Origin: Paucibacter sp. Y2R2-4 | GTDB taxonomy: Bacteria; Pseudomonadota; Gammaproteobacteria; Burkholderiales; Burkholderiaceae_C | Length of the DNA: 64,000 bases | NCBI RefSeq assembly: GCF_025717535.1 | Contig: NZ_JAJIRO010000003.1 | Span: 372,001 to 436,000, forward strand | Direction of reading: 5' to 3' | Notes under the pieces: model-generated | Told to the model about the DNA's origin: nothing | What the model saw: the letters and a program-made list of their open reading frames with translations, nothing else | The model's database searches: none | In this document: positions 35,926 to 40,717 of the stretch, piece after piece | How positions within the stretch are numbered: position 1 is the stretch's first letter | Layout of the letters: every line of letters starts with the position of its first letter | Position numbers and translations under genes: made by a program

Positions 35926-37217
35926 GCCGGATCTTCCTTCTTGCCGAACTCGGCCGGCACGCGAATCAAGGCCGTCATCGCCAGCGAAGGCAGCGTGGCC
36001 ACGAGCACCCAAGCGAAGAACAGGGTGTAGCCCAGTTGCTGCTGCAGCCAGCCGCTCCACATACCCGGCACCATCATGCCCAGGGCCATGAAGCCGGTGC
36101 AGATGGCGTAGTGCGCCGTCTTGTGCGGGCCATCGGCCACCAAAATCATGTACATCAAATAGGCGGTGAAGCCCAGGCCGTAGCCGAACTGCTCGACCGC
36201 CAGGCCGGCACTGATCAAGGCCAGATGGCCCGGCATGGTCAGGGCCAGCAGCAAGAAGATGACGTTCGGCACATGCATGGCCAAGACCAAAGGCCAGAGC
36301 GCCCGTTTGAGGCCGACGCGCGAGATGATCCAGCCGCCCAAGAGTCCGCCCAGCGTCAGCGCGATCAGGCCCACCGTGCCATAAGCAATGCCCACCTGTT
36401 TGGTGCTCAGGGCCAGGCCGCCTTGTTCGGCGCTGTCGAGCAAAAAGGGCGTGGCCAGTTTCAGCAACTGCGCTTCTGGAAAACGGTAGAGCAGCAAGAA
36501 GCCGATGCTGATGCTGATGCCCGGCTTGCGGAAGAACTCGGCGAAGACGCGCAAGAACTCAGTCATCAGCCCGCCCGCCGCACGTCGGCCCGCGCCGGGG
36601 GTATCGGCTGTCGGGCGTGGCAGCAGGGCCAAATGGAAGCAGCCCAGCAAGACAAAGGCGGCGGCCATCAGCCCGAAGACCAAGGACCAAGCGGTTTGCA
36701 CGCTGCCGCTGCGTTCTTGCAGTTCACCGGCCAGATAGACCAGGCCGCCTTGGCCGCCAATATTGGCCAAACGATAAAAGGTGGAGCGCACGCCGACAAA
36801 AGCCGCCTGGCTGCGCTGCGGTAAGGCCAGCAAATAGAAGCCATCGGCCGCGATGTCATGCGAGGCCGAGGCAAAAGCCATCAGCCAAAACACCGCCAGC
36901 GTCATCTGAAAAGCCTTGGGGCCGGGAATGGTCAGCGCCACCAGGGCCAGGGCCGCGCCGATCAAGAACTGCAGGGCCCAAATCCAAGCGCGCTTGGTGT
37001 GGAACAGCTCGACCAGTGGCGACCACAGCGGCTTGATCACCCAGGGCAGATAGAGCCAGCTGGTGTAGAGCGCGATATCGGTATTCGACAGCCCCAGGTT
37101 CTTGTACATGATGACCGACAGCGTCATCACCACCACATAGGGCAGGCCTTGCGCAAAGTAGAGCGAGGGCACCCAGGCCCAAGGGTTGCGGCTGAGGGAA
37201 GAAGAGGAGTCGGACAT
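35922..37217 (-). CDS. AmpG-like MFS permease coupled to a GHL10 hydrolase
   Basis: 431 residues and 12 membrane segments. The N terminus (WVPSLYFAQGLPYVVVMTLSV) and SHDIAADGFYLLALPQRSQA match the AmpG group, which imports anhydromuropeptides for recycling; other members carry different solutes, so the substrate is inferred. It is shorter than Pseudomonas AmpG but has the typical motif pattern. Its stop overlaps the start of the DigH-type hydrolase. The upstream 240 bases are shared with the divergent bufferin gene. Confidence 0.85.
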   Translation of the reverse strand: MSDSSSSLSRNPWAWVPSLYFAQGLPYVVVMTLSVIMYKNLGLSNTDIALYTSWLYLPWVIKPLWSPLVELFHTKRAWIWALQFLIGAALALVALTIPGPKAFQMTLAVFWLMAFASASHDIAADGFYLLALPQRSQAAFVGVRSTFYRLANIGGQGGLVYLAGELQERSGSVQTAWSLVFGLMAAAFVLLGCFHLALLPRPTADTPGAGRRAAGGLMTEFLRVFAEFFRKPGISISIGFLLLYRFPEAQLLKLATPFLLDSAEQGGLALSTKQVGIAYGTVGLIALTLGGLLGGWIISRVGLKRALWPLVLAMHVPNVIFLLLALTMPGHLALISAGLAVEQFGYGLGFTAYLMYMILVADGPHKTAHYAICTGFMALGMMVPGMWSGWLQQQLGYTLFFAWVLVATLPSLAMTALIRVPAEFGKKEDPA

Positions 37218-37458
37218 GCGCAGGCGGTGGCTAGGAGCGTAAGACGGATGGAACCGAAGTGGCGGCGAGGGCCGTGCGACTGTAGCGCGCCGCTTGCTTG
37301 AAAATTTTTTGCATGGCCTTGTAAGTTTGCGCGTGCTGGCGGCGACTGAAGTGAGCAGGTCCATGGGTCTATCGGTTCATCGATCAGATGGCCGGATCTG
37401 CAGCAGTCACACCGTGGCTGTGAACTCAAACGATTCATCACCTTTTCAGGAGCATTCC

Positions 37459-37716
37459 ATGCAAGCAACTTTCAAGACCGGCCTGAGCATCGCCGCCGCA
37501 GCCGCCGCCCTGTTCGCCACCACCGGCATCGCCACCGTGGCCCATGCGCAAGACGGCATGGTCAAGTGCAGCGGCACCAACAGCTGCAAAGGCACGTCGG
37601 AGTGCAAGACCGCCAAGAGCGAGTGCAAGGGCCACAACAGCTGCAAGGGCCAGGGCTGGGTCAGTGCCAAGACGGCCGCCGAGTGCACCAAGGCCGGCGG
37701 CAAGGTGGAGAAGTAA
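37459..37716 (+). CDS. bufA: bufferin precursor, BufA2-type periplasmic metallophore
   Basis: 85 residues. A signal peptide ends near residue 30 (VAHA). The mature 55 residues hold six cysteines (37, 43, 49, 56, 62, 76) in a Lys- and Gly-rich frame with repeated NSCKG units, the pattern of BufA2 bufferins. Bufferins are ribosomal peptides whose cysteines are modified by a DUF692/MNIO enzyme and that buffer copper outside the cytoplasm. AGGAG is seven bases from the ATG. The modifying genes lie directly downstream after a stem-loop. The exact modified residues cannot be read from sequence. Confidence 0.87.
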   Translation: MQATFKTGLSIAAAAAALFATTGIATVAHAQDGMVKCSGTNSCKGTSECKTAKSECKGHNSCKGQGWVSAKTAAECTKAGGKVEK

Positions 37717-37734
37717 AAAAAGCTCAGCGGCCCG

Positions 37735-37769
37735 GGAGGGTTGGCAAGGTTCAGACTTGCCGACCCTCC
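37735..37769 (+). promoter_or_regulatory. intercistronic stem-loop between bufA and bufB
   Basis: A 14-bp stem (GGAGGGTTGGCAAG / CTTGCCGACCCTCC, one U-G pair in RNA) with a 7-base loop. It is 18 bases after the bufA stop, without a U run, so it should act as a partial terminator or 3' stabiliser that raises precursor over enzyme expression. Confidence 0.8.
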
Positions 37770-37806
37770 GAGCCCCTTGTATTCAAAGCAGACTAGGGAG
37801 ACTCCC

Positions 37807-38736
37807 GTGCCCACCCGTTCTTTGCAAGGCTTTGGACTCGGACTCAGAACCGAGCACTATGCGGATATTGCCGATCCTCTCGCGCCTTTGCCGGCCGCAT
37901 TGCGTCCGGATTGGCTGGAGGTGATCTCTGAAAACTATCTGGTGGCCGGCGGCAAGCCCTTGCAGCATCTGCTGCGCATTCGCCGCGATTACCCCATGGT
38001 CATGCATGGGGTTTCGATGTCGATCGGCAGCACCGATTCTTTGAACCTTGCCTATCTGCACGAGCTGAAGGATTTGGCCGACCGGGTGGAGCCGGCCTGG
38101 GTCTCCGACCATTTGTGTTGGACCGGGGTGGATCACCGCAATCTGCACGATCTCTTGCCCATGCCCTATACCGCGGCGGCCTTGCAGCATCTGCTGCCGC
38201 GCATCGATCAGGTGCAAACGCTCTTACAGCGGCCGCTGGTTTTGGAGAACGTGTCCAGCTATGTTCGCTTTGCTGCTGATGAAATGAGCGAAGCCGAGTT
38301 CGTGGTCGAACTGCTGCGCCGCAGCGGTTGTTACCTGCTGCTGGATGTCAACAACGTCTACGTTTCCAGTCGCAACCACGGCTTCGACGCGCGCGACTAC
38401 ATCGACCGCTTGCCGCCAGAACAGATTGTGCAAATCCATCTGGCCGGCCATGAGGATCGGGGGGACTGCCTGGTCGACACGCATGATCACCCGGTCAGCG
38501 ATGCGGTCTGGCAGCTCTATTGCTACACCTTGATGCGCATCGGCGCGCGGCCGACCATGATCGAGCGAGATGACAAGATCCCGCCTTTGCTTGATTTGCT
38601 ACAAGAGCTGGATCAAGCCCGGCGGCTGACCCAGACGGTTTGCGGCAAGACCCCAAACCTGGCACGCGCCTCTCGACCCCTACGCCCTCTGCTTCCCTCA
38701 CAAAGGCCGGGTCAGCCCCTGGCCCTGCAGCCATGA
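37807..38736 (+). CDS. bufB: bufferin-modifying DUF692/MNIO-family iron enzyme
   Basis: 309 residues, TIM-barrel of the multinuclear non-haem iron oxidase family. Visible ligand motifs include HGVSMSIGS, SDHLCW, LENVSSY, DVNNVYVSSRNHG, HLAGHEDRG and DTHDHPV. MNIOs oxidise cysteine residues of a precursor peptide to heterocycles or thiol-derived groups with help from a DUF2063 partner. The GTG start has GGGAG six bases before it. It overlaps the next gene by ATGA, so enzyme and partner are made in equal amounts. Confidence 0.92.
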   Translation: MPTRSLQGFGLGLRTEHYADIADPLAPLPAALRPDWLEVISENYLVAGGKPLQHLLRIRRDYPMVMHGVSMSIGSTDSLNLAYLHELKDLADRVEPAWVSDHLCWTGVDHRNLHDLLPMPYTAAALQHLLPRIDQVQTLLQRPLVLENVSSYVRFAADEMSEAEFVVELLRRSGCYLLLDVNNVYVSSRNHGFDARDYIDRLPPEQIVQIHLAGHEDRGDCLVDTHDHPVSDAVWQLYCYTLMRIGARPTMIERDDKIPPLLDLLQELDQARRLTQTVCGKTPNLARASRPLRPLLPSQRPGQPLALQP

Positions 38737-39533
38737 GCGCCATGCCGGGCCTGGATCTGCTGCGCCAGCAGCAACAAGACTTGCAAGCTTTGATCCTGGG
38801 CCAGCCGTCTGCGCGTCGAGAGCGCCTGCTGGCGGGCGGCGCGCCATCCGTCTATCAAGAAGCTTATGGCGCGAGGCTGCTTTCTGCTTTGCGTGACAAC
38901 TACGCCGTGCTGCATCTGGCCATGGGCGCTGAGGCCTTCGATGCGCTGGGAAGCGCCTATCTGGCCGCACATCCTTCAAACCAGCCGTCTATCCGCTGGT
39001 TTGGCGATCAATTGGCGGCTTACATGAGCGGGCCTTTTGCTGAGCGCTTGCCGCATCCGGCCTTGGTGGACTTGGCGCGCATGGACTGGGCTTTGCGTGC
39101 GGCCTTTGACGGGCCCGACGCGGCGCCGATGACCCGGTCTCAGTTGGCCGCGCTCGCGCCGCAAGCCTGGGCCGCTTTGCAACTGCGGCTGCAGCCCACC
39201 GCACAAGTATTGAGCCTGGACTGGACGGTTGAACCCACTTACTTGGCTTTGAGTCGCAGTGAGATCGAGGGCCAGGGCGAAGCCCCCGAGCCGCAAGCCC
39301 TGAAACACGCCTTGTTGGTCTGGCGCGAGGGCGATGAAACCCGCTGGCGCTCGCTGGAGGCTTGGGAGGCCGAACTGCTGGTGGCCACGCATGCAAACAG
39401 CAGTTTTGCAGACTTGGGTGAGCTGGCGGCCCAGACCTTTGGCGCAGAGGCCGCAGCCGGCCAACTGGTGCAGGCCCTGCAGACCTGGGTGGCGCAGGGC
39501 TTGCTCGCAGAGCCAGAGCTCAGTGCTGCGTAG
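38733..39533 (+). CDS. bufC: DUF2063-family partner of the MNIO enzyme (BufC/HvfC type)
   Basis: 266 residues. The N-terminal ~95 residues match DUF2063 (QQDLQALILGQ, VYQEAYGARLLSALRDNYAVL, HPSNQPSIRWFGD). The C-terminal half is helical and variable, as in BufC/HvfC. This subunit recruits the precursor to the MNIO. It ends the operon: the next gene is a convergent lipoprotein three bases from its stop. A DoxX-like fourth gene (BufD type) often found in bufferin clusters is absent here. Confidence 0.9.
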   Translation: MSAMPGLDLLRQQQQDLQALILGQPSARRERLLAGGAPSVYQEAYGARLLSALRDNYAVLHLAMGAEAFDALGSAYLAAHPSNQPSIRWFGDQLAAYMSGPFAERLPHPALVDLARMDWALRAAFDGPDAAPMTRSQLAALAPQAWAALQLRLQPTAQVLSLDWTVEPTYLALSRSEIEGQGEAPEPQALKHALLVWREGDETRWRSLEAWEAELLVATHANSSFADLGELAAQTFGAEAAAGQLVQALQTWVAQGLLAEPELSAA

Positions 39534-39536
39534 AAC

Positions 39537-40439
39537 TCAGAGCCGCGCGTCGTAACTGGCTTTGTGTGTGGCGCTGCGCAAAGACTGGATCCAGCCCGAG
39601 CGATTCATGCCCGAGGCGGTGGTGCCGGTGATGCGGTGCGTCCAGTTGAAGGTCAGATCGCAGCTTTGCACCAGCGAGCTGTTGGGGCTGTTCGGGTTGT
39701 AATTCTTGCTGGCGTTGTTCAGCGCCAGATCCAGGTCCAGGGTGCTGATGCGGTAGCTGTTGCCATCGATGGTGTTGCCCAGAAACAGGTCATTGCTGTC
39801 GAAGCTGGTGCCGTCCGCTCGTTTGCAAAGCGCCGATACCAAGACCCCCATGCCGCTGCTCGCGGGCTGGCTCATTTGCACCTTGAAGGCGCCGGTGGAC
39901 CGAGCGATCACAGGCACGCCGCTGGGCGAGACCACGCTGAAAGGCTTTTGCATCGTGATGCTGCTGGTATAGACCTCGCCGCCACGATGAAAATTGACGA
40001 ACACGCTGGGCTGCTCGGTGGCATCAGCCAGTTTGCCTACATAGGTGATGCCCTTGCCGGTGTCGTCCGTCATGTCGACGCGCAGTGCGCCGATGCCGGC
40101 GGAGAGGCGGTCACTGCCGCTGCGGTAGACCACCGAGAAGGGGTTGTCCCCAAAACCCAGCCGCGATTCGATGCGCACCTGGCTCCCCTCTTGGGTGACT
40201 TTGTATTCGGGGCGAATGTCTTCAATGCGCAGCGTGTCCGACTGCTTGCAATTGCTGATGGCGCAGCCGGCGCTGTCAACGAAGTCGTTGATTTGATCTT
40301 GCAAGCCGCCGCCGCCACAGGCGCTGAGCATCAGGCTGCCGAGCAGGCTGAGGCCCAGGGCATGGGTTCGCAGTGTGGTCGATCGGGTCTGGCCGGTGGC
40401 GGGCAGTGCGCATGTCGGAGTCTTGTCGGTTGCGTCCAT
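39537..40439 (-). CDS. hypothetical lipoprotein
   Basis: 300 residues. The long N terminus leads to lipobox LMLSAC (C41) followed by a short Gly tract, as in surface lipoproteins. The rest is beta-rich with no known catalytic motif; four cysteines besides the lipid-bearing one (NCKQS, ALCKRADG and others) could form disulfides. The ATG has GGGAGA eight bases upstream and is preferred over an upstream ATG. It converges with bufC and is divergent from aqpZ. Confidence 0.68.
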   Translation of the reverse strand: MDATDKTPTCALPATGQTRSTTLRTHALGLSLLGSLMLSACGGGGLQDQINDFVDSAGCAISNCKQSDTLRIEDIRPEYKVTQEGSQVRIESRLGFGDNPFSVVYRSGSDRLSAGIGALRVDMTDDTGKGITYVGKLADATEQPSVFVNFHRGGEVYTSSITMQKPFSVVSPSGVPVIARSTGAFKVQMSQPASSGMGVLVSALCKRADGTSFDSNDLFLGNTIDGNSYRISTLDLDLALNNASKNYNPNSPNSSLVQSCDLTFNWTHRITGTTASGMNRSGWIQSLRSATHKASYDARL

Positions 40440-40717
40440 GTTGGGTTCTCCCTGTGGATAAGGCGGCGGGCGGGTGAGGACCTGAGCGCCAGGAATCGTG
40501 TCCCTTGTTATCAGCGCCGCCGCAGTGTCTCCGTTTGCAGGCTTTGTCTGTGCTGTGCTGCCGCGAGTGTTGAAAGCTGCGCCTCGGCGGCTCATCTGGC
40601 GCTACCTTTCTAGGGGTCAGTCCCCGCTTTCTGTGACATATTTCTCGGGCATCATGGCGTGCCGTCGCGCCGTTAGAGGACGGCCGGACGGTTTGACACA
40701 TCTAGAGAGGAAAAATA

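Follow-up and report, generated by a model that had tools for sequence, protein, structure and literature searches.

Thousands of Buf1 and Buf2 bufferins are described in PMC12452194, which reports that the central cysteines of Buf1 are modified and that its first and last cysteines form a disulfide (Fig. 3 legend), and which gives the modification of Buf2 as still unidentified. The locus considered here, bufA2-bufB-bufC, lies in Paucibacter sp. Y2R2-4 (assembly GCF_025717535.1, contig NZ_JAJIRO010000003.1, positions 372,001 to 436,000 of the forward strand); this whole stretch of 64,000 nucleotides is referred to as the window, and unprefixed coordinates are positions within it. The Caulobacter operon CC2907-2906-2905 (CCNA_03001-02999) resembles the locus in encoding an exported cysteine-rich precursor, an MNIO, and a DUF2063 partner in the order A-B-C (PMC12452194, PMC3511200, PMC8224329). 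It is reported there as a three-gene operon, likewise with neither DoxX nor a local sigma gene, whose expression depends on an extracytoplasmic function (ECF) sigma factor (PMC3511200, PMC8224329). This factor, SigF, is described as controlling both CC2907-2905 and CC3254-3257, an operon with DoxX, through the element GTAACC-N16-CGAA (PMC3511200); both operons and sigF itself are reported to be copper induced, and a sigF mutant to be copper sensitive (PMC8224329). CC2907 would by inference be the Caulobacter Buf2 precursor; PMC3511200 lists it as DUF2282, and a search of a Caulobacter control genome with the BufA2 model NF050166 returned no match.

A second group of described relatives, the EGKCG/oxazolin captophorins (fontiphorin, HvfABC, and gonophorin), shares the MNIO and the DUF2063 partner, and thiooxazole chemistry and copper binding are reported for it in PMC13097082. 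In these systems Lys precedes Cys in the precursor and a Phe follows the catalytic Asp of the maturase, whereas in the Paucibacter locus Lys follows Cys and the maturase residue is Asp.

The Buf2 locus and its relatives

By its sequence, the locus is a complete Buf2-type bufferin operon (captophorin, Cys-Lys group) and an ordinary member of an operon kind that is already known. Its product is very probably a small exported peptide with chemically altered cysteines that is able to soak up excess copper. The genes follow the order bufA-bufB-bufC that is characteristic of Buf2:

37459..37716, + strand: bufA2, Sec-like leader and six-Cys Buf2 bufferin precursor, 85 residues; NF050166 88.5 bits (cut-off 60)
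37807..38736, + strand: bufB, MNIO (formerly DUF692) maturase, 309 residues, GTG start; NF050167 369.6 bits (cut-off 310)
38733..39533, + strand: bufC, DUF2063 partner protein, 266 residues; PF09836

The original prediction, made from the letters of the DNA, had called this a complete three-gene bufferin locus with a BufA2 precursor. Its coordinates were confirmed, and the products of bufA2 and bufB both exceeded the curated cut-offs of their NCBIfam models. BufB also matched PF05114 (358 bits), and BufC matched PF09836, the DUF2063 domain, with 57 bits (cut-off 27.2) over residues 12 to 98. The start of bufC sits inside the stop of bufB in an ATGA overlap (38733-38736), joining the MNIO enzyme and its DUF2063 partner as had been proposed. 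A family profile of BufC gave a weak match to PDB entry 3DEE (whole-sequence E 3e-4; the best stretch, in the C-terminal half, reached 0.049 alone), which bears on the RRE-like C-terminal domain expected next to DUF2063 in PME-type 1 partners. The predicted short exported peptide with six cysteines and two copies of NSCKG can be read in the 85-residue product, which begins MQATFK, passes the leader boundary at AHA/Q, and continues through QDGMVKCSG, TNSCKG, TSECKT, AKSECKG, and HNSCKG (full sequence AECTKAGGKVEK). The leader has typical n-, h-, and c-regions and is Sec-like, a reading made by eye.

The search against the BufA1 and BufA2 families that the prediction had suggested assigned the precursor to BufA2, the Buf_6/12Cys type. 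The peptide had no Pfam match at E 0.001, so no DUF2282, and its six cysteines place it outside Buf1, in which precursors have DUF2282 and four cysteines. It also falls outside the EGKCG/oxazolin group, which is defined by EGKCG repeats with Lys before Cys; its own motifs are NSCKG, SECKT, and SECKG. Comparison with solved structures gave no meaningful match for BufA2.

The 5.13-Mb host genome has two MNIO matches, one of which is bufB; the other belongs to a Buf1 locus, L002. The operon there encodes a DUF2282 precursor, an MNIO, a DUF2063 protein, and DoxX; an ECF sigma gene lies divergent to it and has a zf-HC2 gene behind it (the zf-HC2 match lies exactly at the Pfam cut-off). L002 resembles bufA2BC in having a precursor related by profile, an MNIO, a DUF2063 partner, and the promoter element described below, and differs from it in its four cysteines, the DoxX fourth gene, the adjacent ECF sigma and zf-HC2 genes, and the lack of an intercistronic hairpin. 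Among named organisms, those with the closest relatives of BufB belong to Roseateles and Paucibacter (the name Paucibacter oligotrophus is also applied to Roseateles oligotrophus, of the Sphaerotilaceae, Burkholderiales).

Related loci came from one BufB scan of species genomes; it gave 197 relatives, and the 80 best were used. With loci from genome searches and the window, the analyzed set comprised 114 sequences, some loci being present twice and the window locus three times; profiles matched BufA in 109, BufB in 111, and BufC in 110 of them, most commonly in the order A-B-C. Because the window BufB served as bait, the sample leans toward its relatives. Start codons in related loci were assigned by rule, and all counts ignore shared ancestry. 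A class-wide search covered 369 genomes and gave matches in 26, the host genome included; 29 loci were fetched.

The lack of a DoxX-like fourth gene had been remarked on in the original prediction. The absence stands, but not as a deviation, since it is usual for Buf2: with a profile seeded from one sequence and of untested sensitivity, none of the 64 A2-B-C loci with at least 1 kb of sequence beyond bufC had DoxX within 1 kb downstream of that gene (five further Buf2 loci were too short for this check). A lost fourth gene was rejected on this count. DoxX matches occurred in seven sequences; the one in L002 follows the Buf1 bufC, and the others lie upstream of the Buf2 operon. In L069, L087, and L109, a Buf2 operon comes directly after a Buf1-type operon whose last gene is DoxX, and a DoxX gene likewise precedes the Buf2 operon of L013 and L072. 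A PF07681 search for which 30 of the 80 named loci were submitted detected DoxX in 29 of 30 genomes; its contig numbers could not be matched to the loci, so the count does not settle the position of DoxX relative to Buf2.

Both flanking genes of the Paucibacter locus are on the opposite strand. Upstream is an AmpG-like transporter; downstream is a 352-residue protein without a family, followed by aquaporin Z. The 352-residue protein (39537-40595, - strand) stands tail to tail with bufC and matches nothing in Pfam or NCBIfam at E 0.001.

Cysteine pattern of BufA2 and specificity residues of BufB

The six cysteines of BufA2 are invariant in an alignment of 76 sequences. Exactly six were present in the counted core of 91 of 97 distinct BufA2 proteins, spaced 6-6-7-6-14 in 59 and 6-6-7-6-13 in 32; the others were four ten-cysteine proteins and two (counts of 9 and 7) whose first cysteine the script placed too early. 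In the 91 six-cysteine precursors, Lys follows Cys1, Cys2, Cys3, Cys4, Cys5, and Cys6 in 0, 89, 79, 85, 87, and 11 cases, respectively. Alignment of the BufA2 profile (76 sequences) with a BufA1 profile (8 sequences) gave an hhalign probability of 97.4 and placed the first cysteine on the first, and Cys6 on the last, cysteine of BufA1. On the basis of the Cys/Lys pattern of the 91 precursors and the Buf1 precedent, BufA2 is predicted to carry a Cys1-Cys6 disulfide, between residues 37 and 76, and its four inner cysteines, Cys43, Cys49, Cys56, and Cys62, as thiooxazoles. For residues 31 to 85, the computed neutral monoisotopic mass of such a peptide is 5604.45 (four losses of 4 H and one of 2 H for the disulfide), compared with 5622.59 for the unmodified, reduced form. 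A 2026 paper cited in PMC13419390 deals with the role of the signal peptide as the leader of bufferins.

Precursors with other cysteine numbers vary between the two terminal cysteines. Ten-cysteine forms (L092:3598-3927, L093:3546-3890, L100:3571-3900, and L102:3551-3886) have extra CK units between the first and last cysteine, apparently by internal repeat growth, unlike the domain duplication described for 12-cysteine forms. At the other extreme, L078:3665-3868 encodes a 68-residue BufA2-like precursor with three cysteines (the first, one in CKG, and the last) beside open bufB and bufC frames. This precursor, from one metagenome-assembled genome, may be regarded as a natural minimal substrate. 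In the class-wide loci, the BufA2 core was readable by a simple pattern in 19 of 29, all with six cysteines (10 loci escaped the pattern); these 19 held no further three-cysteine precursor, and the L078 variant is therefore a single case. The cysteine counts, the profile alignment, and the Buf1 precedent together suggest that a disulfide brackets modified cysteines whose number varies.

In BufB, the residues His67, His102, Glu147, Asp180, Asn183, His211, Asp224, His226, and Asp255 are identical in all 104 aligned sequences, Buf1 maturases and the window included, and His215 is replaced by Phe in 5 of the 104. The iron ligands were assigned from motif position rather than from a structure. Relatives of BufB in the PDB are 3BWW, to which it was aligned, 8HCI (a DUF692 protein, which we take to be TglH), and MbnB.

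BufB reads IERDD, in which the catalytic Asp255 is followed by Asp256 at the Cys-Lys specificity position, and Arg14-Thr15. Both features agree with the Cys-Lys MNIOs of PMC13097082, in which an Asp modelled as contacting the substrate Lys takes the place of FonB Phe250, and the second Arg of FonB Arg15-Arg16, here Thr15, is described as not conserved in Cys-Lys and DUF2282 MNIOs. Further on, that paper states the reverse about the second Arg for Cys-Lys enzymes, in a sentence that reads like a slip for Lys-Cys. Among 97 BufA2-linked MNIOs (repeat fetches included), the Asp256 position holds Asp in 88, Ala in 6, and Gly in 2 and was unread in 1. Nine MNIOs linked to BufA1-like or weak precursors have Thr in four, Ala in one, and Asp in one (L078), with three unread; once the mini-BufA2 locus L078 is set aside, no Asp occurs among the readable residues of the eight BufA1-linked enzymes (four Thr, one Ala). 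Nine MNIOs without a linked precursor have six Asp, two Thr, and one Ala. Over 82 distinct BufA2-MNIO pairs, the 75 with Asp have a mean of 3.85 inner Cys-Lys units versus 2.86 in the 7 without (Fisher p 0.0026).

Putative promoter element and intercistronic hairpin

Three further features accompany the genes, two of them upstream of bufA2 and one between bufA2 and bufB:

37300..37310, + strand: A/T-rich stretch GAAAATTTTTT, UP-element-like, read from the sequence just upstream of the -35 element
37320..37346, + strand: putative ECF-type promoter TGTAAG-N17-CGAC (-35/-10), ending 112 nucleotides before the bufA2 ATG
37735..37769, + strand: hairpin with a 14-base-pair stem, a 7-nucleotide loop, and no T tract, in the 90-nucleotide bufA2-bufB gap

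The GTAAG and CGAC columns of the promoter element are invariant across an alignment of 12 upstream regions that includes the one from the window. The match at 37320-37346 is the only one in the window to the N14-19 form of the element (chance expectation, 0.17), and a second TGTAAG-N17-CGAC site precedes bufA1 (L002:2899-2873). The exact N17 form has three sites in the whole host genome (reversed control, seven), two of which are those at bufA2 and bufA1; the third precedes a secreted Sel1-repeat-like protein, named by eye (L116, G000:C4:15280-15306). Across 18 genomes of the genus there were 42 exact sites and 153 reversed-control matches, with locations known for the exact sites only. At the 31 site loci that were read, the element stood before bufA1 in 12, before bufA2 in 4, before the Sel1-like gene in 6, before no recognized shared target in 8, and before what is probably a truncated bufA1 in the remaining one (L170). 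Three of the 11 unread sites lie, by coordinates, 127 to 141 nucleotides before a bufA2 match, so that at least 19 of the 42 exact sites are at bufferin genes. Similar A/T stretches, judged by eye, precede 14 of 16 sites upstream of bufA1 or bufA2, the exceptions being L163 and L175. The Sel1-repeat-like protein is a possible third member of the same sigma regulon; the element lies 15 to 50 nucleotides before the nearest start codon in L116, L168, L172, L173, L174, and L177 (6 of 31 loci), and in L116 a lipB-like gene, also named by eye, lies beside it.

The upstream regions of 97 BufA2 genes contained the strict form of the element (N15-18) in 36 cases and a looser form in 24; the strict form was found in 48 of 5018 control segments, true sites among them. 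Among 30 sigma loci, 18 had an adjacent bufA1, with the strict element in 12. Of the related genomes, 24 of 25 that are BufA2-positive and 23 of 54 that are BufA2-negative have the sigma gene, uncorrected for phylogeny. In G001 and G003, bufA1 carries the element although it does not lie beside the sigma gene; in G003 it is on another contig (L186). At L122 (G005) and L124 (G003), no bufA1 adjoins the ECF sigma gene, and a cytochrome-b561-like gene (by eye) is nearby. A sigma-70 promoter was rejected as a candidate, with no such site in 37200-39700.

The occurrence of the element before both bufA2 and bufA1 suggests that one sigma factor is common to the two. It is most likely the ECF factor encoded beside the Buf1 locus L002, and the zf-HC2 protein is taken to be its anti-sigma factor. 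PMC12452194 places sigma genes in Buf1 and not in Buf2 clusters. The wiring differs in its sequence and partners from that of Caulobacter, where GTAACC-N16-CGAA and SigF-NrsF take the place of TGTAAG-N17-CGAC and a zf-HC2 gene beside the sigma gene. Closer in kind is neisserial sigmaE-ZAS, for which PMC2893595 describes a -35 of GTMAGBWTT, a -10 of CGTCTAAH, an AT-rich UP element, a ZAS anti-sigma factor, and a regulon that includes an operon with a DoxX-like gene; the main target there is the rpoE operon itself, whereas here bufA2BC is on a different contig (C3) from the sigma gene (C1). In Cupriavidus metallidurans, the Buf1 system gigPABT-rpoQ-rsqA has, as does L002, a four-gene operon divergent to an ECF sigma/anti-sigma pair and is reported to be induced by copper and gold; RsqA is predicted to be membrane bound, unlike the zf-HC2 protein here (PMC10304878). 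The passages of that paper that were consulted mention no Buf2 operon. No report of a promoter element shared by Buf1 and Buf2 in Burkholderiales was found in searches of openly licensed papers, few of which were opened.

The bufA2-bufB gap folds with -38.5 kcal/mol for 93 nucleotides (z -3.1). Of 77 A-B gaps, 60 of 40 to 200 nucleotides were analyzed (12 were shorter and 5 longer), and z was below -2 in 47. When fixed 80-nucleotide pieces were compared, 44 of 60 A-B gaps fell below -2; the corresponding numbers in controls of 60 each were 7 upstream of bufA2, 1 downstream of bufC, 7 at random, 0 inside bufA2, and 3 inside bufB. The single case downstream of bufC indicates that the hairpin is not simply a feature of operon ends. 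Hairpins occupy the same place in many Buf2 loci with differing sequences. In the independent class-wide set, the count was 16 of 23 where an MNIO adjoined, 4 of 7 where none did, and 0 of 30 within bufA itself. After bufA1, z was below -2 in 5 of 26 Buf1 loci, a set that includes duplicates, and was 0.3 in L002. In L201, which has tandem precursors, the hairpin follows only the precursor gene adjoining bufB (z -6.1 versus 1.4). No known RNA family was found at E 1 in 37000-39700, and a REP-like repeated element was rejected because the hairpin is single copy in the genome. The hairpin may set the ratio of precursor to maturase. In some lantibiotic operons, too, a hairpin of this kind lies behind the precursor gene. 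The words hairpin, stem-loop, and terminator do not occur in the main text of PMC12452194 or PMC13097082; in the one paper found with both "bufferins" and "stem-loop" the stem-loop belongs to another locus, and a further listed paper contains neither hairpin nor terminator.

Proposed pathway and its alternatives

The locus is probably a Buf2 operon that is driven by an ECF sigma factor and dosed by its hairpin, and whose product, with four inner cysteines converted to thiooxazoles and a disulfide, sequesters periplasmic copper. Under envelope, metal, or oxidant stress, the ECF sigma factor encoded beside the Buf1 locus would start transcription at TGTAAG-N17-CGAC before bufA2, and the hairpin after bufA2 would keep the precursor mRNA more abundant than the bufBC part. 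A BufB-BufC complex would then recognize the Sec-leader precursor in the cytoplasm and convert the four inner cysteines, each followed by Lys, to 5-thiooxazoles with a loss of 4 H each. Export of the peptide by Sec would be followed by formation of the Cys1-Cys6 disulfide, and the mature peptide of about 55 residues would sequester copper in the periplasm. The gene identities, intact active-site residues, shared promoter element, statistical hairpin, and Cys/Lys pattern on which this pathway builds are read in the DNA itself. As for the copper-binding modified peptide of the original prediction, the Buf2 assignment holds up through family, gene order, active-site residues, and literature, and copper as the ligand would follow by analogy with characterized relatives.

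Several observations weigh against this reading. On the side of the promoter, a further L002 match (N16) lies inside the sigma gene, the relaxed pattern (N15-18, CGWC) has 15 sites in the host genome versus 53 for the reversed control, 37 of the 97 BufA2 upstream regions have neither form of the element, and 6 of the 18 sigma loci with an adjacent bufA1 lack the strict form. A related form occurs at only 2 of 30 BufA genes of the class-wide sample, so the TGTAAG-N17-CGAC wiring is regional, that is, bound to a lineage. In C. metallidurans, which also belongs to the Burkholderiales, gig expression went up when rpoQ was deleted, no transcription start dependent on RpoQ was found (PMC10304878), and RpoQ is described as not essential for gig in PMC13192273; because gig expression rose without rpoQ, a sigma gene in the neighborhood is no proof of control. 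As to the hairpin, the close relatives L035 (-1.6), L042 (-1.8), L039, and L041 stay above z -2, the gap in L040 is 31 nucleotides, and 12 of the 77 A-B gaps are too short. The association of Asp with Cys-Lys rests on seven non-Asp loci with kinship ignored, and BufC reached a single NCBIfam model, the HvfC equivalog NF050145, with 44.9 bits against a cut-off of 142.

The C. metallidurans results and the 37 upstream regions without the element would also fit a bufA2BC operon with its own local or housekeeping promoter, the short TGTAAG-N17-CGAC element being coincidental or meant for another sigma factor. We regard this as very unlikely, given the lack of a sigma-70-like site at 37200-39700 and the placement of at least 19 of the 42 exact sites upstream of bufA1 or bufA2, a comparison in which the locations of the 153 reversed-control matches were not included. 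That the hairpin serves to terminate transcription or to guide RNase processing, and has no bearing on precursor dose, is a doubtful alternative: TTTT after 11 of 59 stems of at least 8 base pairs is what a rho-independent terminator would show, but 48 of the 59, the window's included, have no T run, hairpins are not enriched after bufC (1 of 60), and the L201 hairpin stands only behind the precursor gene next to bufB.

The chemistry and the purpose of the peptide can likewise be read differently. Conversion of all six cysteines to thiooxazoles, with no disulfide, would agree with the invariance of all six and with the 11 of 91 precursors that have Lys after Cys6. It is quite unlikely in view of the complete lack of Lys after Cys1, the alignment of Cys1 and Cys6 with the disulfide cysteines of Buf1, and the four ten-cysteine and one three-cysteine (L078) variants, in which the number of cysteines changes between the first and the last. 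An operon serving mainly against oxidant or thiol stress, gold, or silver, with the peptide as a general thiol/redox buffer and copper secondary, is suggested by the pairing of the candidate sigma with a zf-HC2 protein, since the comparable H. influenzae pair RpoE2-HrsE acts in oxidant stress (PMC7907618) and neisserial sigmaE-ZAS controls msrA/msrB besides its DoxX-like operon (PMC2893595); the gig operons, themselves bufferin loci, owe their name to induction by gold (PMC12452194). Against it stand the copper induction of the Caulobacter SigF regulon and the copper sensitivity of the sigF mutant (PMC8224329), the copper induction of gig and its contribution to copper resistance (PMC10304878), and the binding of copper by thiooxazole peptides (PMC13097082), and we hold it to be unlikely.

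A wider view of the family is offered tentatively and would sooner prove wrong than right. Buf2 may be a standardized device in which a trans-acting ECF sigma factor, often encoded at the Buf1 locus, fires both bufferins in this group of Burkholderiales as a single regulon, possibly together with the secreted Sel1-repeat protein, and in which a hairpin conserved in position and free in sequence sets the precursor:maturase ratio. Its peptide would follow a bracket-and-rungs design, with a first-to-last disulfide around a variable number of thiooxazoles (one in the three-cysteine form, two in Buf1, four in Buf2, and eight in ten-cysteine forms). Both control parts of such a device, the trans-acting sigma factor and the hairpin, would be previously undescribed.

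The locus itself is unexceptional within a large family that protects against copper. The shared promoter element suggests how a Buf2 operon without a sigma gene of its own is switched on, and the hairpin between the precursor and maturase genes, if its proposed role is true, would be a simple dosage element in many of the Buf2 loci examined. Comparison with relatives turns the question of which Buf2 cysteines are modified into one mass measurement.

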